Source: an uncultured Opitutaceae bacterium
GTDB taxonomy: Bacteria; Verrucomicrobiota; Verrucomicrobiia; Opitutales; Opitutaceae
NCBI GenBank assembly: GCA_903862935.1
Contig: CAIOZY010000048.1
Span: 1 to 50,652 of the forward strand
Direction: 5' to 3'
Length of the DNA: 50,652 nucleotides
Shown: positions 41,553-50,493 of the stretch, piece after piece
Layout of the letters: each line of letters opens with the position of its first letter
How positions within the stretch are numbered: the stretch's first letter is position 1
Position numbers and translations under genes: made by a program
The notes under the pieces: generated by a model
What the model saw: only the letters and a program-made list of their open reading frames with translations
Database searches by the model: none
What the model was told of the DNA's origin: nothing

Positions 41553-42812
41553 ATGGGACATTCCCGGCATCCTGTCGTCTATACGGTCCTAATCGCGCCG
41601 TTTGGTGCGGTCACAGGCTTTGTCAGCGTGGCGCTCGCCTTCATGGCCACGAAAAAGGGACTCACCGTGGGGCAGGGGGCGGAGCTGATCGCCATCGGGA
41701 TGCTGCCCAACGTCTGGAAGTTCTTCTGGGCCCCGGTGACGGACATGACGCTGAGCCGCCGGAAGTGGTACCTGATTTCCCTGGTTCTGTGTGCCGTGGG
41801 CACGTTCGCGACGGCCGCCGTACCCTTGCGCCCGTCCAACTTCCTGCTGGTCCAGGCGATCATCTTTGCCACCTCGGTTGCGGCGACCGTCCTCGGATTC
41901 GCCGTGGAGGCCATGATGGCCAAGCACACGTTGCCCGCGGACCGCGGGCGGGTCAGCGGCTGGTACCAGGCCGGAAATCTCGGCGGAACGGGGATTGGTG
42001 GGGGCCTGGGCCTGTGGCTGTTGACCCAGTTGCCATCGCCCGCCCAGACCGGGCTGATTCTCGCCGCCCTGATGCTCTTCTGCGGGGCCGTGGTTCCGCT
42101 GCTCCCGGATGTTCCGGCTGAAGACCGGGGAGAGTCGGTCGCTGGCGCCGTGCGCAACGTTGCCTCGCAGGTCTGGCGGATGGGCCGGATGCGCGAGGGG
42201 GCGCTGAGTGCCTTTCTCTGCTTTCTTCCCCTGGGAACGGGCGCTGCGGCCGGAGTCCTTGCCCAAGCCGACGTCGCTGCCCACTGGGGAGCGGACTCCC
42301 GGCATGTGGAGCTGGTTCAGGGGTTCCTCGGTGGCCTCGTCTCCATGGTCGGCTGCATCGTGGGCGGTTACGGGTGCTCCCGGATAGGCTCCCGCGTCGC
42401 CTACGCCGCCTACGGTGGGATCATGGCGGCGGTCACCGCCGCGATGGCCTTCCTGCCGGCGACCCCCTCGATCTATGTCGGCGGCAACATCGCCTATTTC
42501 TTTGTGAACGGGCTGTGCTACGCGTCCTTCTCCGCAGTCGTCCTCGACGCGATTGGAACCGGTCTGGCCGCAACGAAATACAACGTCTTCGCATCGCTCT
42601 CGAACACCCCAATCTGGTACATGGGGCTGCTGCTCGCAGCCGTTGAGACCCGCCTTGGTCCCAAGGGGATGCTGCTTGCCGAGTCCGCGTTTGGGATCCT
42701 AGGAATCCTGGCCTTCATGGCCGCCGCCCAAGTCTGGCGTCCCAAGGCTGCGGTACCTCCGGCCACCAACGGCGCCTGGGAGGGCGGGGTCGCCCAAACC
42801 TCGGGGGACTGA
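41553..42812 (+). CDS. MFS transporter (AmpG/PAT-like)
   Basis: 419 residues with 12 predicted membrane helices. The N-terminus FGAVTGFVSVALAFMATKKGLTVGQGAELIAIGMLPNVWKFFWAPVTDMTLSRRKWYLIS has the loop 2-3 signature of the peptide/acetyl-CoA/drug (PAT, AmpG-like) branch of the MFS: WAPxxD followed by RRKWY. The second half (VGCIVGGYGCSRIGSRVAYAAYGGIM, YFFVNGLCYASFSAVVLDAIGTGLAATKYNVFASLSNTPIWYMG) is consistent. Importing muropeptides like AmpG is possible and would fit a LysM neighbour, but the substrate is not established. Converges on the giant coiled-coil gene, 49 bp apart. Confidence 0.85.
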   Translation: MGHSRHPVVYTVLIAPFGAVTGFVSVALAFMATKKGLTVGQGAELIAIGMLPNVWKFFWAPVTDMTLSRRKWYLISLVLCAVGTFATAAVPLRPSNFLLVQAIIFATSVAATVLGFAVEAMMAKHTLPADRGRVSGWYQAGNLGGTGIGGGLGLWLLTQLPSPAQTGLILAALMLFCGAVVPLLPDVPAEDRGESVAGAVRNVASQVWRMGRMREGALSAFLCFLPLGTGAAAGVLAQADVAAHWGADSRHVELVQGFLGGLVSMVGCIVGGYGCSRIGSRVAYAAYGGIMAAVTAAMAFLPATPSIYVGGNIAYFFVNGLCYASFSAVVLDAIGTGLAATKYNVFASLSNTPIWYMGLLLAAVETRLGPKGMLLAESAFGILGILAFMAAAQVWRPKAAVPPATNGAWEGGVAQTSGD

Positions 42813-42861: not shown

Positions 42862-45800
42862 TCAGGGAATCTTCAACTTTTGGCCGGGCTGGAGACTGTT
42901 CTCGCCCCTTAAAACGTCCCGGTTCGCATCGTAGATGTCCTGCCAGCGGCTTGCCGTGCCGTACTGTCGGAAGCTGATCCGGGTCAGGGTGTCCCCCTCC
43001 TGCACAACATACGTCCTGGTCGGCGCAGCCTGGGGGGCCGGCGCCGGGGTAGACGACGGGGCCTGGGCCTGCGGGGCCGGGGGCAGCCGTGATGGGAACG
43101 AGGCTCCTCCGTTGAGAACGCGCGCCGCAGAGGCGATCTGCTCAAGGGTGGACTGGGCAACCCTCAGGCGCGCCGCGAGTGCTGTGTTCTCCTGTTGGAG
43201 CTGGGCCAGCCGGGACGTGCGATCGCGCTCGGCTGCTGCCGCGGCCTCCCTGGCCCTGGTCCCTTCGGTCCGAAGCGCGGCCAAGTCGCGTTGCGCATCC
43301 GCAAGCTGCTTTTCAACTGCGTCGAGTTGGGAAGCCCGTTCGGCCGATGCCTTGTCACTGCTGGCCAGCTTGGGACGGAGCGCCTCCAGGTCGGCAAGGG
43401 CCTGCGTCCGGGCCGCGTCGAGGTCCTGCTTCGCCTTTGCGAGCTCGGCGTTTTCCGCGCGGAGGACCTCGAGCTTTCCGGAAAGGTCCTTAACCTGGGT
43501 CTGGAGCGTCTCGCTCGAGGCGATCCTGTCCTGCATGGAAGCCAGCTCCTTTTCCTGCTCGGCGAGCTGCTTTTTGGTGGTGTCGGCCTCTGAAAAGCGA
43601 TCACTTCCCGCCTTTTCCGCGGCCGCGAGCTTCTCGCGAAGTCCCGAAACCTCCTGATGCAGGGAGGTGAGCTGTCTGGCGGCCGCCTCGAGCTGCGAGG
43701 CCCCGTCCGCGGCGGCCTTGTCTCCAGCGGCTAGCCTGTCCCGCAGCGAGCTGATCTCGGTGGCCGCTTTGTCCGCGGCAGCCCGCGCCTCGGCCTGGAC
43801 TGTATCTGAATCCCTTCTCGCCCGAGAAAGTTCGGCATTTTCAGCGCGGAGCGTGTCGAGCTTGCGGGACAGGTCGCTCACCTGGGCCTGCAGGGTCTCC
43901 CCTGCAGCAAGCCGTTCGCGCAGTCCCGTGAGTTCCTGCTGCTGGGCGGCCATCTGCCGAGCGGCGCCCGCAAGTTCCGCGCGGGCCTTCTCGGCCTCGC
44001 CGAGCCTGTCCTGGAGACCCGAGATTTCTTTCTCCTGATCGGCGAGCTGCCGCTTCGCAGTGTCGAGTTCGGAACTGCGGTCGCCCCCGGTCTTCTCCGC
44101 TGCCGCGAGCTTCTCGCGAAGTCCCGAAACCTCCTGGCGCAGGGAGGCGAGCTGCCTGGCGGCCGCCTCGATCTGCGAGGCCCCGTCCGCGGCGGCCTTG
44201 TCTCCCGCGGCTAGCCGGGCCTGCAGGGAGCCAAGTTCAGCCTTTGCCTTTTCCGCTGAGGCCCGCGCCTCCGCCTGCGCCGCATCCGAGTCCCTCCGGG
44301 CCCGGGAAAGTTCGGCGTTCTCCGACCGAAGGGTGTCGAGCTTGCGGGACAGGTCGCTCACCTGGGCCTGCAGGGCCTCCCCGGAGGAAAGTTTCCCGCG
44401 CAGTCCGGAAAGTTCCTGCTGCTGCGCCGCAAGCTGCCGGGAAGCGGCCTCAAGTTCCGCGCGGGTCTTCTCGGCCTCTCCGAGCTTGTCTTGGAAACCG
44501 GAGATCTCCTTTTCCTGGTCGGCGAGCTGTTTCTTTGCGGTGTCGAGCTCGGAGGCCTTATCCGCGCCTGCCTTCTCCGAGGCGGCGAGCTTCGAGCGCA
44601 GGATGTCGATCTCTTCGCTGCCCTTGCGGCCGGCGTCTGAGAGCTGTCCGCGCAGATTGAGGAGCTCAAGCTGGCTCTTCTCGCTGGACTGCTGGAGCTG
44701 GGCCACTTGCTGCGCCAGCGAGGCATTCTCGGCCTTGAGCTTGCCGTTCTCGCTCGCCAACCCATCGGCCTGTGCCTTCACGTCGGACTCCTCTCCCGCC
44801 TTGGACGTAAGCAGCAGCCTGTTCGCTTCAGAAAGGGCCCGGTTTGTGTCGCGCAGCTGGCTCAGCTGCCTCGCAACCGCCGCAATTTCATCAGCCGAAT
44901 TCTTCTCGTTTTCCGCAGCCTGGCTCTCGAGCTGGCGCACATGCTCCTGCAGGGTCCGCATCTCGAACCGGACAGCCTCCTGGTTCGGAGCTGCCTTCGC
45001 TATCTCGGCCTGGGAGGCCAGCGCGGCATCAGCGCTCTTCTTGGCCACCTCGAGGTCCTTTAGGAGTTCCGAGTTCTTGGCCCTGAGCTCGGCTGCGGCG
45101 GCGGCCTCTACCTTGATCTGGGCCACCTGCTCGTTGAGACCCTGGACGGTCTTCGCAAGCTCGTCTCGTTCCCTCGCGAGTGCGGCGATTCGGGCCTCGG
45201 CCTCCGCATTGGGTTTTTCTCCTCTGGCAACCTCTTGGCGTAGCTCGCCGATCTGGCGGCCCGCAGCCTCAAGCTGGGACGTCCGTTCGGCCAAGGCGCT
45301 TTCGCTCACTGCGAGCCTGCCCTGCAACGCCTCAAACTCGGAACCGGCCTTCGCGCGGGCTTCCTCAAGGCTTTTCTTGGATGCTAGGAGTTCCGCGTTC
45401 TCGGCACTCAGCGATTCCAGCTTAGTTGAAACATCCCTAAATCGCGCCTGGAGCGCATCGCTTTCGGCCAGCTTGGTCTGCAGCTCCGCGAGCCGCGCGT
45501 TGGCGACGGCCAGCTCGGCCGCCGCGCCCTCCTGGGCCTTGGACTTCAAGGCCGCGAGATCCGCCCTCGCCTTCTCGGCAGCGGTGCGGGCCGACTCGGC
45601 ATCCCGCCTCGCCGCGACCAGTTGCCCCTGGAGCGTTTCCAGCTCGGAACCGGCCTTCGCCCGGGCCTCCTCAAGATTCTTCCGGGCTGTCAAAAGTTCT
45701 GCGTTTTCCGCACTCAGCGACTCCAGCTTGGCTGAAACATCCCTAAATCGCGCCCGGAGCGCCTCACCATCGGCCAGCTTGGTTTGAAGCTCCGCGACCC

Positions 45801-48800
45801 GTGCGTTGGCGGCGTCCAGCTCGGCCGCCGCGCTTTCCTGACCCTTGGACTTCAAAGCCGCGAGGTCCGCCCTCGCCTTTTCGGCCGTGGCGCGGGCCGA
45901 TTCGGCGTCCTGCTTTGCCGCTACCAGTTGCCCTTGGAGCGTCTCGATTTCAGAGCCGGCCTTCGCTCGGGCGGACTCAAGATTTCTTTTCGCAGCCCAT
46001 AGTTCGGTGTTCTCCACACCCAGCGCATCAACCTTAGCCGAAGCGTCCCTGAATCGCGCCTGAAGCGCATCGTTTTCGGCCAACTTGGCCTGTAGTTCTG
46101 CAACCCGCGCGTTGGCGCTGGCCAGCTCGGTCCCCGCACCCTCTTGGGCCTTGGCCTTTAGAGCTACGAGGTCAGCCTTTGCCTTCTCGGCAGCAGCGCG
46201 GGCCGACTCAGCTTCTTGCTTTGCCGCGACCAGTTCCGCGTTCTTCGCCCGGATCGATTCGAGCACCCTCGCGGAGGCGTCCCGGTCCTGGGCCTGAAGG
46301 GCCTCGTTTGCAGAGAGCTTGGCCTGGAGTTCGGCGATGCGTTTGCCGGCTGATTCGACCTCGGCCGCGCGGTCCGCAGCAGCGTGTTCGCTCGCTGCGA
46401 GCTTTGCCTGGAGTGTTTCGAAGTCTCCGCGGTTCCTGTCAGCCGAGCCCTGCGCCTGCATCTGGATGGCCTCGGCCTCCTGCTTGGCCCGCGTAAGCTC
46501 GTTGTTCTTCTCGAGAAGGGAATCGAGAAGCTTTCTGACCGAGTCCTTTGTCTGCGCCTGTTGCGCGTCGCTGGCTGAAAGCCTCTCTTTGAGCTGGGCG
46601 ATTTGCTTGTTGGCGGCATCCGCCTCGGCTGAGCGGTCTGCGGCAGCCTTCTCGCTTGCGGCGAGCCTTGCCTGCGCCGCCTCGAGGTCGGCGTGGGCCT
46701 TCTGCGCGGCTGCTAGCTTGGCCTGCGCGGGGTCCAAGAGAGCCCGAACCTTCGCCGCGTCCTCCTCGGCGCGGGCTAAGGCCGCCGCGGCCTGGGCCTT
46801 GTTCCGGTCCAATTGATCGGTCAGTTCCTGGATTCGCCTCCCTAGATTGTCCCGCTCCTTGGTCAGCGCAGCAATGGCCGCCGTATGGTCCGCCTCGGCC
46901 CGCTCGCTGTAGCCGGCTTTTTGCTGGAGCTCTGCAAGCCTCCGGTTTGAGGCCTCCAGCTGCGCCGCCCGTTCAGCCAGGGCGCTCTCCCCGGCAAGCA
47001 GCTTTCCACGCAGGGATTCCAACTCGCTGCGGGCCTGCGCATAGGCCGCCTCAAGGCCTGCCTTCGACTTCGCCGCCTCGTCCTGGACGCGCACCAGGGC
47101 CGCGATCCTGGCCTTTTGCTCGGCTTCGGACCTCTCAACGGCCCCCAGCCTGTCCTGAAGCTCCCCCACCCGCGTGTTCGCGGACGCAAGCTCGGCAGCC
47201 CGCTCGGTGGCGGTCTTGTCGCTGTTGTCCAGCTTGAGCCTGAGAAAATCTAGTTCCGCCTGGGTCTTCTCCAAGGCGGCCTGGGCCTTGGCCCTCGAAG
47301 CCTCGGCTTCCTGGCTCGCAACAGCCAGGCCGTCCCGCGCCTTGGCGAGTTCGGAGACCTTGGGCTCCGGACCGGGAGTTCCGGAGGCTGCAAGCTTTTG
47401 CTCCAGCTCAGCCACCCGTCGATTCGCGGCCTCCAGCTGGGAGGCGCGCTCTGCGGATACCTTCTCGCTATCGTCGAGCTTCAACCGCAGGAAACCCAGA
47501 TCGGCTTGAACCTTGTCATACGAGACACGGATTTTCGCCCGGGCCGACTCTGCGTCCTGGCTGGCCTTCGCCAGATCGTCCCTCTGCCGGGTGACCGCCG
47601 CTAGCTTCGCCTCCACATCCGGCGAGGCTTTTCCAGCGGCCGCAGCCCGGGCCTCCAGCGCGGAAAGTTCCGCGCGTATTTTTTCGGAGGCCGCCTGGGC
47701 CTGCGAGTAGGCCTGCTCAAGATTGTCCTTCGACTTTGCAAGCTCGCCGTTCTGAGCCCGGAGCACCTCTAGCTTCGAGGCCATCTCACGCGTCTGCGCC
47801 TGCGCGGCATCTAGCTGTGAGGTCCGGTCCGCCAGGGCCTTCTCGTCGGTCCCGATTTTGGCCTGCACTGCCGCAAGATCTGCCCGCGCCCTGTCCGCTG
47901 CGGCCTCGGCCTGCGCCCTGCCTGCCTCAGCCTCCTGCCGGGCTTTCTCCAGCCCTGCGCGCTCCTTGGCAATAGCCGCCAGCCTTGCCTCCCGCTCGGG
48001 CCCCAAAATCTCCGAGCCCTTCTCCTTCGCCTGAAGTTCCTCCAGACTCTTGTTCGCAACCTCGAGCTGGGCAACACGCTCTGTCAAGGCCCGCTCGCTC
48101 GCAGCCGACTTCGCACGCAGCTCTTCAAAGTTGGCCTGCGCCTTGTCCGACACGGCAAGCCTTGCCTGCATCGAATCCACGAGGGTACGGGCCTTGGCGG
48201 CTGACTGCTGGGATCTTGCGACTGCCGCCACAGCCTCGTCCTTGGCCTGGGCCAGCTGCTCAGTGAGGCTGCGAGCCTTCTCGGCAAGGGTGTTCCTGTC
48301 CTGGGTAAGGGTCTCGATCACGGCCCGCTGCTCAAGCTCCGCCTTGCTCCCCGCGGCGAGCTTGGCCCGGAGTTGGGACAGCTCAGCTGTGGTGCTCTCA
48401 AGGCGGGCGGCGAGTTCCGCGGAGTTCTGGGCGCTCGCGGCAATCTTCGTCTGCACCGGCTCAAGCAGCCCCCTGGCTTGGCTTGCATCCTCCCGGGCGC
48501 GAGCCACTGCAGCGGCGGCCTCCCTCTTGGTCTGGGCAAACTGTTCGGCAAGGGTCTGAAGACCCTTGGAGAGGGTGTCTCTCTCCGTCGCGAGAGCCGC
48601 CAGGCGCTGGTTCGCCGTATCCAGCTGCGCGGCGCGTTCCGCAGAGGTCTTCTCCTCGGCAGCGAGTTTTGCGTTTGCCGACTCAAGCAGGGTGAGGCTC
48701 TTCCGGGAGCTCTCTTGCGCCTGGACCACCGCCGCACCGGAATCAACCCGGAGCCGGGAAAGCTGCTCGGCAAGGTCTTGGGCGTTCTTGGCAAGGCCGT

Positions 48801-50493
48801 CCCTCTCCCTTGCAAGCGCCTGGAGCCTTGCGTCCTGGCCGGGTTCCACCCTTCCCACAGCGGCTAGCCGCTCCGAGAGCTGGGCGATCTGCCTCTTGGC
48901 CGCATCCAGAGCCGTATCAGATGCGGCGCGCAACTCCTCGGTTTCGCGCCGGGCAGCGATCAGCTGGGTGCGGAGCTGCTCCGTCTCAGAACTCTGCCTT
49001 GCGGCGGCGGCAGCCTTTGTCGTGGCCTCCGCAAGCCTCGACTCCAGCGCGGCTTTCTCGGCGGCGAGGGCTTGTCCCGCCTGGGCGGCCTGGGCCAGGC
49101 GTTCGTTCTCGCTCTTCAGCTTGGCGTTGGCGACCTGCAGTCCCCCGAGGGTCCGGTTGAGCGTGGCGACTTCCGCCTCCAGTGCCTTGGGCCCCTGGGG
49201 GACCGCCGCCGTGCCATCCTGGGCCTTTAGTCCTTCGATCCTTGCCCGGGCGTCCTGGAACTGAATGTTGAGCTTCCCCAGTTCGATGATCGAACTCTGC
49301 TCCTCGGACTCGAGCCGCGCGTTGTCCTGCTCCAGATCCCGGATCTTCGACTTAAGGGCGGCTATGTCCCCGGCATCCGCGTTGGTAACCGAGGTTCCCC
49401 CTTTGAGCTGGGCCTCGAGACGGGACGCCTGATCAGTGGCCGTGGTTTTCGCGGCCCGAAGGCTTTCTACATTGATCTCCAGGAGCTTGATCTTTCTGCG
49501 GAGTTCCTCCGCCGCTGCCGCCGAGACCGAGTCCCTCATCACCGCGTGCGCCGCCTGAAGACGCTCGGAAAGTGAGGCGTTCTCTTCCCGGAGGAGTCGG
49601 AGGTTCGCGGCAATCCGCGCGTTCTCCGAGCGCGCCTTTTCAAGCTCAGCCGCAATCCCGTCGGAACCGGCCGGCGTCTGATCCGCCGCCACAGATTCCG
49701 TGCTCAGTCGCACTTCCTTGGCAGGCTGTGGTCGCCCTCCCATCTCGGCCCGGATGGCCGCAAGTCTCGATCTGGCGTCGTCGATCTGGGACGGGGTGAG
49801 GGATGTGGCGACAAGGTCTCTCCCTTTCGCCGAGATCCCGTTTTCAACGGCCAGCGTGAGCCAGGCGAACGCGGAGATCGGATCCGGAGGGTTGGAGCCA
49901 AAGCCGTTTGCGAGAAGCAGGCCGTAGTTGTTTTGGGCCTTCGCAAAATTCTGGATCGCAGCCGCCCGGTAGAGCTTTGCCGCGGCTGCCGGGTCCGCCG
50001 CCGATCCCCTCCCTGATTCGAGCATCAGGGCCAGGTTAAACTGGGCTGGCGCGTAGCCCTGCGCGGCGGCCGTCCGGTAATAATTCTGGGCGGACTCCTC
50101 GTCCTTGGAGACGCCGCGCCCCATTTCGTAGTCGAGTCCCAGATTGTACTGCGCCTCAGGCAGCCCCTTGTCAGCGGCCTGCCTCAGCCAGAGTACGGAC
50201 TCGGTCTCGTTGCGGGCGACCCCCCTGCCCGCAGCGTACATGTTGGCCACGTTGAACTGCGCAGGCGTGTAACCCTGCCATGCTGCGGACAGATAAAGAT
50301 GGAACGCCTCGGCGAAATCGACAGCCACCCCATCGCCGCGCTCGTACATGGATCCAAGGGTGAACTGCGCCACCGCCGAACCCTCGCGGGCCTGTTTTTT
50401 GAGGGTTGAAAGGTCCAGTTGGCTCTCCGCCGCCTCAAGGCTCGCCAATCCTCCAAGCATGGCGAGAAGGCAGATTTTTGCCCAGGAGACCAT
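42862..50493 (-). CDS. giant exported Sel1 / coiled-coil / LysM protein (2,543 residues)
   Basis: 2,543 residues, the largest gene here. A signal peptide (MVSWAKICLLAMLGGLASLEA, cleavage about 21-23) predicts export. Five Sel1-like 36-residue repeats follow at 38-73, 74-109, 110-145, 146-181 and 182-219 (pattern G-x-x-x-A-Q-(F/Y)-N-L-x-x-x-Y-x-x-G-x-G-x). From about 275 to 2455 lies an unbroken, Ala/Glu/Lys/Gln/Arg-rich coiled coil with few Gly or Pro, built from units such as A-S-E-K-A-x-A-D-R-A-x-(Q/E)-L-(E/D)-A-A-N-x-x-(I/V). Residues about 2460-2493 are a Pro/Ala linker, and 2494-2543 a LysM domain (YVVQEGDTLTRISFRQYG...PGQKLKIP). I see no cysteine after the signal. Sel1 repeats usually bind proteins and LysM binds peptidoglycan. 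Role unknown; related in plan, but not order, to FimV. Confidence 0.9.
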   Translation of the reverse strand: MVSWAKICLLAMLGGLASLEAAESQLDLSTLKKQAREGSAVAQFTLGSMYERGDGVAVDFAEAFHLYLSAAWQGYTPAQFNVANMYAAGRGVARNETESVLWLRQAADKGLPEAQYNLGLDYEMGRGVSKDEESAQNYYRTAAAQGYAPAQFNLALMLESGRGSAADPAAAAKLYRAAAIQNFAKAQNNYGLLLANGFGSNPPDPISAFAWLTLAVENGISAKGRDLVATSLTPSQIDDARSRLAAIRAEMGGRPQPAKEVRLSTESVAADQTPAGSDGIAAELEKARSENARIAANLRLLREENASLSERLQAAHAVMRDSVSAAAAEELRRKIKLLEINVESLRAAKTTATDQASRLEAQLKGGTSVTNADAGDIAALKSKIRDLEQDNARLESEEQSSIIELGKLNIQFQDARARIEGLKAQDGTAAVPQGPKALEAEVATLNRTLGGLQVANAKLKSENERLAQAAQAGQALAAEKAALESRLAEATTKAAAAARQSSETEQLRTQLIAARRETEELRAASDTALDAAKRQIAQLSERLAAVGRVEPGQDARLQALARERDGLAKNAQDLAEQLSRLRVDSGAAVVQAQESSRKSLTLLESANAKLAAEEKTSAERAAQLDTANQRLAALATERDTLSKGLQTLAEQFAQTKREAAAAVARAREDASQARGLLEPVQTKIAASAQNSAELAARLESTTAELSQLRAKLAAGSKAELEQRAVIETLTQDRNTLAEKARSLTEQLAQAKDEAVAAVARSQQSAAKARTLVDSMQARLAVSDKAQANFEELRAKSAASERALTERVAQLEVANKSLEELQAKEKGSEILGPEREARLAAIAKERAGLEKARQEAEAGRAQAEAAADRARADLAAVQAKIGTDEKALADRTSQLDAAQAQTREMASKLEVLRAQNGELAKSKDNLEQAYSQAQAASEKIRAELSALEARAAAAGKASPDVEAKLAAVTRQRDDLAKASQDAESARAKIRVSYDKVQADLGFLRLKLDDSEKVSAERASQLEAANRRVAELEQKLAASGTPGPEPKVSELAKARDGLAVASQEAEASRAKAQAALEKTQAELDFLRLKLDNSDKTATERAAELASANTRVGELQDRLGAVERSEAEQKARIAALVRVQDEAAKSKAGLEAAYAQARSELESLRGKLLAGESALAERAAQLEASNRRLAELQQKAGYSERAEADHTAAIAALTKERDNLGRRIQELTDQLDRNKAQAAAALARAEEDAAKVRALLDPAQAKLAAAQKAHADLEAAQARLAASEKAAADRSAEADAANKQIAQLKERLSASDAQQAQTKDSVRKLLDSLLEKNNELTRAKQEAEAIQMQAQGSADRNRGDFETLQAKLAASEHAAADRAAEVESAGKRIAELQAKLSANEALQAQDRDASARVLESIRAKNAELVAAKQEAESARAAAEKAKADLVALKAKAQEGAGTELASANARVAELQAKLAENDALQARFRDASAKVDALGVENTELWAAKRNLESARAKAGSEIETLQGQLVAAKQDAESARATAEKARADLAALKSKGQESAAAELDAANARVAELQTKLADGEALRARFRDVSAKLESLSAENAELLTARKNLEEARAKAGSELETLQGQLVAARRDAESARTAAEKARADLAALKSKAQEGAAAELAVANARLAELQTKLAESDALQARFRDVSTKLESLSAENAELLASKKSLEEARAKAGSEFEALQGRLAVSESALAERTSQLEAAGRQIGELRQEVARGEKPNAEAEARIAALARERDELAKTVQGLNEQVAQIKVEAAAAAELRAKNSELLKDLEVAKKSADAALASQAEIAKAAPNQEAVRFEMRTLQEHVRQLESQAAENEKNSADEIAAVARQLSQLRDTNRALSEANRLLLTSKAGEESDVKAQADGLASENGKLKAENASLAQQVAQLQQSSEKSQLELLNLRGQLSDAGRKGSEEIDILRSKLAASEKAGADKASELDTAKKQLADQEKEISGFQDKLGEAEKTRAELEAASRQLAAQQQELSGLRGKLSSGEALQAQVSDLSRKLDTLRSENAELSRARRDSDAAQAEARASAEKAKAELGSLQARLAAGDKAAADGASQIEAAARQLASLRQEVSGLREKLAAAEKTGGDRSSELDTAKRQLADQEKEISGLQDRLGEAEKARAELAGAARQMAAQQQELTGLRERLAAGETLQAQVSDLSRKLDTLRAENAELSRARRDSDTVQAEARAAADKAATEISSLRDRLAAGDKAAADGASQLEAAARQLTSLHQEVSGLREKLAAAEKAGSDRFSEADTTKKQLAEQEKELASMQDRIASSETLQTQVKDLSGKLEVLRAENAELAKAKQDLDAARTQALADLEALRPKLASSDKASAERASQLDAVEKQLADAQRDLAALRTEGTRAREAAAAAERDRTSRLAQLQQENTALAARLRVAQSTLEQIASAARVLNGGASFPSRLPPAPQAQAPSSTPAPAPQAAPTRTYVVQEGDTLTRISFRQYGTASRWQDIYDANRDVLRGENSLQPGQKLKIP
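42865..43014 (-). other. LysM domain of the giant protein
   Basis: Codons 2494-2543 encode a complete LysM domain: YVVQEGDTL, an ISFRQYGTASRWQDIYDANRD middle and the PGQKLKIP end. It predicts attachment to peptidoglycan at the C-terminus. Confidence 0.9.
43561..44600 (-). repeat. 480-bp tandem in-frame repeats in the coiled coil
   Basis: The sequence repeats with an exact 480-bp (160-codon) period: units begin at 43561, 44041 and, partially, 44521. Comparing 43621-43740 with 44101-44220 by eye gives 111 identical bases of 120 without gaps; the 60 bases from 43861 and from 44341 share 50. Each unit encodes the same run of coiled-coil segments (QLADQEKEISGLQD, AQVSDLSRKLDTLR, ENAELSRARRDSD). 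Confidence 0.9.
45325..46242 (-). repeat. 306-bp tandem in-frame repeats in the coiled coil
   Basis: Three copies with an exact 306-bp (102-codon) period, seen with several anchors (45341, 45647, 45953 for one word; 45431, 45737, 46043 for another). A shorter related unit (234 bp spacing) follows at about 46277. Each encodes the segment set AESARxxAEKARADLAALK, ELxxANARVAELQTKLA, RFRDVSAKLESLSAENAELL and KAGSELETLQGQL. Unit edges are approximate. Confidence 0.88.
49836..50382 (-). other. five Sel1-like repeats of the giant protein
   Basis: Codons 38-219 form five consecutive 36-residue Sel1 repeats (alpha/alpha solenoid). They sit directly after the signal peptide and could be a protein-binding head on the coiled-coil stalk. 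The last repeat is slightly irregular, with an extra NPPDP. Confidence 0.85.

Follow-up and report, generated by a model that had tools for sequence, protein, structure and literature searches.

The 50,652-nucleotide window analysed here is the entire contig CAIOZY010000048.1 (C48) of the 62-contig genome of an uncultured Opitutaceae bacterium, and it carries on its minus strand a gene for an exported protein of 2,543 amino acids (aa), in which a Sel1 solenoid, a very long coiled coil and a C-terminal LysM domain follow one another. Our data show that this protein has relatives across Opitutaceae, that its two ends are conserved, and that the coil between them drifts in sequence and length. 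The coil is probably a parallel dimer, judging by its residue pattern. We propose that the protein is a peptidoglycan-anchored long-reach tether, a reading to which we assign a probability of roughly 0.48.

Architecture of the protein

The frame has 2,543 codons, starts with ATG and contains no internal stops. Its parts are as follows (evidence in brackets).

42862..50493, minus strand: whole gene of family A, exported Sel1-coil-LysM protein, 2,543 aa (open reading frame (ORF), Pfam, orthologues)
50428..50493, minus strand: signal peptide without lipobox, residues 1-22, with the cleavage site placed by eye (Kyte-Doolittle scan)
49738..50412, minus strand: Sel1 solenoid, residues 28-252 (Pfam, AlphaFold2, nearest solved Sel1 proteins)
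49657..49737, minus strand: flexible linker, residues 253-279, predicted local distance difference test (pLDDT) below 50 at 261-276 (AlphaFold2)
43111..49656, minus strand: heptad coiled coil, residues 280-2461; its register breaks 31 times, by 3 or 4 residues in 25 of these cases (periodicity and register models; ends modelled)
45337..46235, minus strand: tandem duplication in the coil, 306 bp x 2.9, 79% matches, 102 aa (repeat analysis)
43612..44553, minus strand: tandem duplication in the coil, 480 bp x 2.0, 82% matches, 160 aa (repeat analysis)
43120..43221, minus strand: last coil turns before the linker, residues 2425-2458, strongly conserved (12 of 26 invariant columns in the 43-sequence tail alignment)
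43018..43110, minus strand: Pro/Ala linker, residues 2462-2492 (sequence, low pLDDT)
42865..43017, minus strand: C-terminal LysM, residues 2493-2543 (Pfam, conserved tails, AlphaFold2 fold)

Pfam finds Sel1 at E=2.9e-31 (107.2 bits versus a cut-off of 30.7, with three stretches passing individually) and LysM at residues 2495-2543 at E=3.2e-9 (37 bits versus 20.9). AlphaFold2, given 57 aligned heads, models residues 28-252 as a Sel1-type solenoid of 13 helices, mostly with pLDDT 96-98, followed by a disordered link and then a helix; a modelled solenoid of this size is consistent with at least five Sel1 repeats. In the model from 43 aligned tails, one unbroken helix of 152 residues (2310-2461) passes through a disordered Pro/Ala link into a LysM fold. 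Thus the plan described in the first-pass annotation of this DNA, made by a model from the letters and a list of open reading frames (signal peptide, five Sel1 repeats, coil, Pro/Ala linker and LysM in one frame), is borne out, with a coil of about 2,180 residues, and the sole cysteine is indeed residue 8, within the signal peptide. The coil is near neutral in charge, has some Pro/Gly spots, and includes two blocks that look like tandem duplications, with copies about 80% alike.

Apart from Sel1 and LysM, the only curated model of Pfam or NCBIfam above its cut-off on this protein is the eukaryotic coil model HMMR_N (36.2 versus 30.1), a match that we read as reflecting coil composition. Membership in the SMC/Rad50 group finds no support in NCBIfam, where SMC_prok_B scores 154.5 against a cut-off of 567.35 and the others are also far below theirs; the same is true of the MotX, AlgK, ExoR and MerG models. 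In the parts of the literature returned by a search for the architecture, no publication describing a Sel1-coil-LysM plan came up.

Distribution of the family

A strong match to the Sel1 head of the window protein (best E <1e-45) is present in 54 of 150 Opitutaceae genomes. Forty of these loci were fetched as a first set, and 33 of them, hereafter the 33 orthologues, combine Sel1 with LysM in a single frame of 1,212-3,660 aa (frame lengths are counted from stop to stop, and the proteins are somewhat shorter). A scan of genome contigs, of which the best 80 loci were kept, provided a second set that overlaps the first in part: its first 70 loci (L159-L228) bear verrucomicrobial titles in 69 cases and only 'bacterium' in one, and Sel1 and LysM share a frame of 666-2,122 aa in 45 of them. 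The last ten of the 80 (L229-L238) have titles of other phyla, and LysM was not found in them. At the level of the order (177 genomes), full-length head matches (E <1e-80) occur in 8 of the 15 own-family genomes listed; no match in another family is better than 7.1e-59, the value of a 317-aa frame, so that by sequence a head comparable to that of the window protein does not seem to occur outside Opitutaceae in these genomes. The first-pass suggestion of a new type of protein therefore holds insofar as no curated family model beyond Sel1, LysM and the coil model describes it, but the gene belongs to a widespread Opitutaceae family and is not a lone oddity.

A second, paralogous family, B, shares the general plan; along with a coil and LysM it has about two Sel1 repeats, which resemble the last ones of A. 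Its frames span 900-1,961 aa in the 21 that were kept and 1,535-2,163 aa in four more. By head profile (E<1e-18) it is present in 79 of the 150 family genomes, the full plan having been checked only in fetched loci. Both families co-occur in 44 genomes, A alone is found in 10, B alone in 35 and neither in 61 (kinship not accounted for); the genome of the window has family A only. Opitutus terrae PB90-1 (G003) and Lacunisphaera limnophila IG16b (G113), both with single-contig genomes, appear to carry A and B, in frames of 1,913 and 1,384 residues for A and 1,099 and 1,904 for B, respectively.

Some minor observations belong here. Three loci with an A-type head, L076 (G049), L069 (G045) and L071 (G076), have no LysM in frame, and a loss of wall anchoring is possible there. 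In six frames of family A from metagenome-assembled genomes (MAGs; L168, L179, L184, L190, L212 and L224) we noticed in-frame stops, three TAG and three TAA, after which coil or Sel1 sequence resumes in the same frame; sequencing errors, real decay and population variation are alternative explanations. Among long-frame LysM matches outside the family, L247 and L249 have no Sel1 match and L248 is largely masked, and the Sel1-coil-LysM plan was not seen in any of the three. A simple Sel1 regular expression gave almost no matches and was discarded as a means of search.

Predicted export and wall contact, and rod length

A topology scan covered 47 proteins, namely those of 46 of the 70 second-set loci (L181, cut before LysM, included) and the window protein. 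A hydrophobic N-terminal signal segment is present in 44 of them (Kyte-Doolittle scan), the mature part is cysteine-free in 43, and neither a later membrane-like segment nor a lipobox was found in any. We infer from this that the window protein is exported by Sec; export as such and a single LysM had been proposed on first inspection. Having no membrane segment or lipid anchor, it would be periplasmic in a two-membrane cell. As families, LysM domains bind peptidoglycan and Sel1 solenoids hold partner proteins, and by analogy the LysM of this protein would grip the sacculus. A coiled coil rises by about 0.15 nm per residue, which gives a rod of about 324 nm for the window protein and of about 110-475 nm for the 33 orthologues. 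At the usual size such a rod is far too long to cross an ordinary periplasm and hence must lie along the wall; the earlier estimate of a stalk exceeding 300 nm agrees with this.

One could also imagine that the rod is a radial spacer, spanning an unusually deep periplasm or a membrane infolding from sacculus to membrane. In the second set, the frames of 968 and 666 aa are the shortest and would give rods below the range above; for L216, the 666-aa frame and the shortest A-type one with LysM, we estimate only about 40 nm. Besides, three of five coil-LysM ORFs that neighbour B genes (at 2 of 25 B loci) have a lipobox. But a variation of about 110-475 nm is ill-suited to any fixed gap, and we consider this explanation very improbable.

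The presence of a wall to hold on to is documented in the hosts. Until 2017, descriptions of the group stated that it lacks peptidoglycan components, as recounted in PMC5303756; that paper reports diaminopimelic acid (DAP) in O. terrae PB90-1 and sacculi obtained from L. limnophila IG16b, a coccus of 0.9 um. Hosts of Sel1-coil-LysM proteins do possess peptidoglycan.

Type of coiled coil

The heptad signal of the window coil is strong, with a mean windowed power of 5.31 at period 3.50 versus a maximum of 1.49 in 50 composition shuffles, which confirms the coiled coil recognised on first inspection. A seven-state register model trained on the 33 orthologues, with the window protein left out, places Ile, Val, Asn or Leu at a and Leu or Ala at d; position g is acidic or Gln, and e is Arg, Gln or Thr. 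Against the 31 breaks that it finds in the window coil, one shuffled copy has 59, and in other orthologues the share of breaks of 3 or 4 residues is 45/46, 19/26, 38/59 and 8/13. Asn and beta-branched residues at a together with Leu at d mark parallel dimers. With a second register model, blind to the difference between a and d, the a:d ratio of Asn is 17:5 in the window protein and 536:82 in the 33 orthologues, and that of Ile/Val is 48:22 and 1059:396. Charge pairs from g to e' (+5) are mostly attractive (attractive:repulsive 53:10 in the window protein, 832:180 in the orthologues and 480:41 in 21 B proteins). Outer pairs of equal spacing lean the opposite way in the orthologues (b>g 260:474, e>c 331:517); the values are 26:31 and 18:39 in the window protein, and in B they are neutral (128:125 and 143:132). 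This pattern points to a coil that is probably parallel and in register, a homodimer.

It should be noted, however, that several observations count against this assignment. A trimer would yield part of the same charge signal. Within-helix pairs at +3/+4 are strong throughout (in the window protein b>e 43:5 and f>c 50:4), and part of the +5 signal could be indirect. Positions g and e of the window protein show no overall acid/base bias (0.24/0.24 and 0.20/0.22), and its a:d difference for Leu is not significant (p=0.08). Finally, c>a (21:1) and d>b (14:0) pairs of the window protein are positive as well, so part of its register is probably misassigned.

The same data bear on the proposal, also raised in the first-pass annotation, that the chain folds back, here into an antiparallel bundle, a thick spacer short enough for a normal periplasm. 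The 31 register breaks and some Pro/Gly spots could serve as hinges, but 25 of these breaks are of a length that continuous coils tolerate. The last 152 residues of the coil are modelled as a single helix; being a model of one chain, it cannot show how helices pair. Folding back is disfavoured by the parallel-type Asn and Ile/Val at a and by the strong g-e' complementarity, and it appears to us quite unlikely.

A parallel rod of this length is at the same time a typical building block of filaments, and dimers might stack end to end or sideways into a periplasmic cytoskeleton, bound to peptidoglycan, that shapes or stiffens the wall. In intermediate filaments, acidic and basic residues recur in antiphase about every 9.5 positions, and a 28-residue repeat indicates myosin-type packing. 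The charges of the window coil do repeat, at a period of 9.45 residues and with a phase of -178 degrees between acids and bases, but this signal is weak and borderline, being reached by 5.5% of 1,000 heptad-block shuffles, and a repeat of this type falls under 5% in only 4 of the 33 orthologues and is absent in the other 29. The 28-residue repeat does not rank with the leading periods of acids, bases or net charge in the window coil, where the best observed-to-shuffle ratios (1.8 for acid, 2.0 for base and 1.7 for net charge) are scattered over unrelated periods. A threefold variation in length among the orthologues also fits poorly with stacking. MreB-family profile matches occur in 150 of 150 genomes and are uninformative here. 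There is a precedent for a periplasmic polymer that bends cells: CrvA, the curvature protein of Vibrio cholerae, which polymerises in the periplasm and is described, in PMC7695739, as a structural protein acting on wall growth. Compared by description only, it is by analogy the best counterpart for a periplasmic structural protein. Filament formation, as the annotation had it, thus keeps some standing, with its charge-repeat support only borderline, and we regard it as unlikely.

Conserved ends and a drifting rod

Identity to the window protein is 40-54% and 39-55% at the two ends. Across a Sel1 alignment of 12 sequences the mean column identity is 70%; 57 aligned heads have 23 invariant columns and 43 aligned tails have 26, of which 12 fall in the last coil turns. 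All 43 tails scanned (42 of 45 available relatives and the window protein) match LysM. For 39 within-genus pairs, identity is 37-88% in the coil, 52-92% in the first 340 residues and 66-89% in the last 110, and the coil is less conserved than the head in 36 of them.

Frame length varies threefold across the 33 orthologues. A natural experiment on rod length is provided by the sister proteins L061 and L062, whose coils are 88% identical and differ by one clean block of 240 residues. Gaps of at least five residues in 13 close pairs (at least 60% identity, of 21 candidates) are divisible by seven in 19 of 48 cases versus 6.9 expected (p=1.5e-5). From these gaps and the varied frames it appears that register tends to be kept and length does not. 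The strength of this argument is reduced by the facts that 15 of the 19 sevenfold gaps are 7 or 21 residues long, that among the 37 gaps longer than 7 residues 10 are divisible by seven versus 5.3 expected, that the aligner favours in-phase gaps and that the pairs are partly dependent. The idea of a molecular ruler, put forward at first, does not survive this threefold range, the spread of 666-2,122 aa in the second set and the 240-residue step between sisters. More tentatively than for the single protein, we suggest that Opitutaceae possess their own class of 'leash' proteins attached to the wall. These would be rods, 100 to nearly 500 nm long, formed by parallel dimers and lying along the sacculus, with ends under selection and a length that evolves almost freely, in steps that largely keep register.

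A proposed tether along the sacculus

In the reading that we prefer, that of a peptidoglycan-anchored tether, the protein would be exported by Sec and retained in the periplasm, where two chains would zip into a parallel, in-register coiled coil. The pair of LysM domains on its flexible linker at one end would grip glycan strands of the sacculus, the paired Sel1 solenoids at the other end would hold a partner protein of the envelope, and the rod would lie along the sacculus. The partner could in this way be confined to a wide but bounded patch of the sacculus, or distant parts of the envelope could be stitched together. The ends of such a device would have to be exact, and the rod would need mainly an unbroken heptad coil, leaving its length free to drift.

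Beyond the reservations about coil type and gaps given above, other points weigh against this proposal. Partner, localisation and peptidoglycan binding of the window protein are deduced from its sequence. Seven of the 40 first-set loci fall short of the full plan, owing to a contig end, to a stop or frameshift, or to the absence of LysM. The other 25 of the 70 second-set loci include 12 that run off the 3' contig end, one without a 5' end, six with LysM in another frame or after a stop and six without a LysM match. The gene seems dispensable in the genus of the window, because only 2 of its 13 genomes have a strong head match. The usual neighbours of the family, prfB and a gene that we call X, stay adjacent in genomes without a Sel1-coil-LysM gene and offer no hint of its function.

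Several known systems share parts of this plan. The polarity scaffold PodJ of Caulobacter has cytoplasmic coils. It has a transmembrane segment between them and its periplasmic Sel1, whereas none of the 47 members scanned here has a later membrane segment; in the window protein the signal peptide comes first, the coil follows it and Sel1, and a C-terminal LysM is added, so that membership in the PodJ family was rejected. The likeness lies in coiled coils, in a periplasmic Sel1 possibly contacting peptidoglycan and in PodJ being treated as a dimer, as described in PMC9926476. FimV/HubP/TspA proteins likewise combine a peptidoglycan-binding LysM, a helical-repeat module and a long middle; PMC12918733 describes them as having LysM in the periplasm, TPR at the C-terminus and, besides a transmembrane region, an acidic part in the cytoplasm. 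In the window protein the order is reversed, with Sel1 N-terminal and LysM C-terminal, as the annotation had pointed out, the coil is near neutral and the membrane segment is lacking, as in all 47 proteins scanned, and membership was rejected here as well. By analogy, FimV/HubP and PodJ still offer the best comparison for the working mode, with wall contact at one end and client binding at the other. The solved Sel1 proteins (6deh, 4bwr, AlgK 3e4b, and MotX in flagellar rings) share the Sel1 fold: the head superposes on 6deh_A with a template modelling (TM) score of 0.66 and a root-mean-square deviation of 1.6, and has profile matches to MotX and AlgK, but no title among the matches listed mentions a giant coil or LysM. 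The solved LysM closest by sequence is the Kbp/YgaU-type 7pvc (E=1.3e-8), a potassium-binding protein chain of 157 residues, and the match spans LysM only.

Polarity in the sense of a flagellar link does not hold as a rule: FlhA is present in 27 of 54 carriers of an A head and in 52 of 96 non-carriers (p=0.73, kinship not accounted for), and the genome of the window has no FlhA match. A flagellar link was therefore rejected.

If the tether reading is true, the envelope would be organised from outside the inner membrane over distances that make up a good part of the cell; for comparison, the cocci of three Lacunisphaera isolates measure 0.6-0.9 um. PodJ and FimV/HubP, the wall-linked scaffolds compared here, cross the inner membrane, unlike an exported rod of hundreds of nanometres, which would represent a distinct long-range way to organise an envelope. 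Since L. limnophila IG16b and O. terrae PB90-1 appear to carry the gene, its role and the free length of its rod are directly testable.

Genomic setting

In the second set, 66 of 70 loci have gene X upstream on the same strand (more than 400 bp away in seven of these), and prfB was found in 58 of the 70 stretches. X (for example L116, 11505-12899) encodes about 470 aa, adjoins prfB and is 66-84% identical in the comparisons made; it has no Pfam match at E<=1 and looks ATP-grasp-like by eye. L216 is not beside X; its 666-aa frame has a short coil and comes from the same MAG as the 1,424-aa frame of L166.

The gene of the window departs from this arrangement. It starts 159 bp from the contig end, yet is complete, and the prfB-X pair of its genome lies on another contig, C40, with no Sel1-coil-LysM gene in the 11.5 kb downstream. 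The pair is likewise gene-free in 6 of 6 congeners fetched (7-12 kb downstream seen). The strong head matches in the genus are those of the window genome and of G504, which carries a family A gene beside X; five congeners (G072, G114, G148, G500 and G501) have a family B protein instead. On a tree of 82 Sel1 heads, built by a quick method, the window copy stands alone on a long branch (0.67), and no near relative of it is supported. It has thus moved within the genome or come from elsewhere, and the tree cannot tell which. No match suggesting shared order was found when 26 window genes were compared with the flanks of A and B loci.

The gene-free prfB-X site suggested a mis-binned contig, which is contradicted by composition and by malQ. 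The tetranucleotide profile of C48 correlates with its own genome at r 0.983 (C40), 0.975 (C60) and 0.871 (the lower-GC C1), with five congeners at 0.944-0.971 and with seven other genera at 0.80-0.91; for a sixth congener, G038, r is -0.54, the compared stretch having 43% GC. The malQ on C48 is the only match in its genome, with congeners among the best at 63-67% identity and other genera at 65%. More generally, one might take the gene for a sequencing, assembly or binning artefact or for a decaying gene, given its place at a contig end away from the usual site, its few kin in the genus and its long lone branch. But the plan recurs across Opitutaceae, including the single-contig genomes of O. 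terrae and L. limnophila, the tandem copies differ by about 20% and are no product of collapse, the heptad signal is intact, and the contig fits its genome in composition and in its single malQ. This explanation is scarcely credible, and we conclude that the gene is genuine and free of artefact.

In G038 the prfB-X stretch (C16:294000-308500, L122) has 43% GC versus 65-68% in those of the other congeners, reflecting either a large composition shift or misplacement. The neighbour of the gene in the window, at 41553-42812 on the plus strand, is a convergent major facilitator superfamily (MFS) transporter with homologues of 45-62% identity in 4 of 40 other family genomes searched and of less than 30% in two further ones of those 40. 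Elsewhere in the same genome (C60:16160-17803) there is a 689-aa frame with several Sel1 matches and without coil-like composition. At the B loci L124, L130, L253 and L255, one or two further coil-LysM ORFs of 256-502 aa stand behind the B gene; those with a lipobox are at L253 and L255, and their sequence suggests lipoproteins that grip peptidoglycan.

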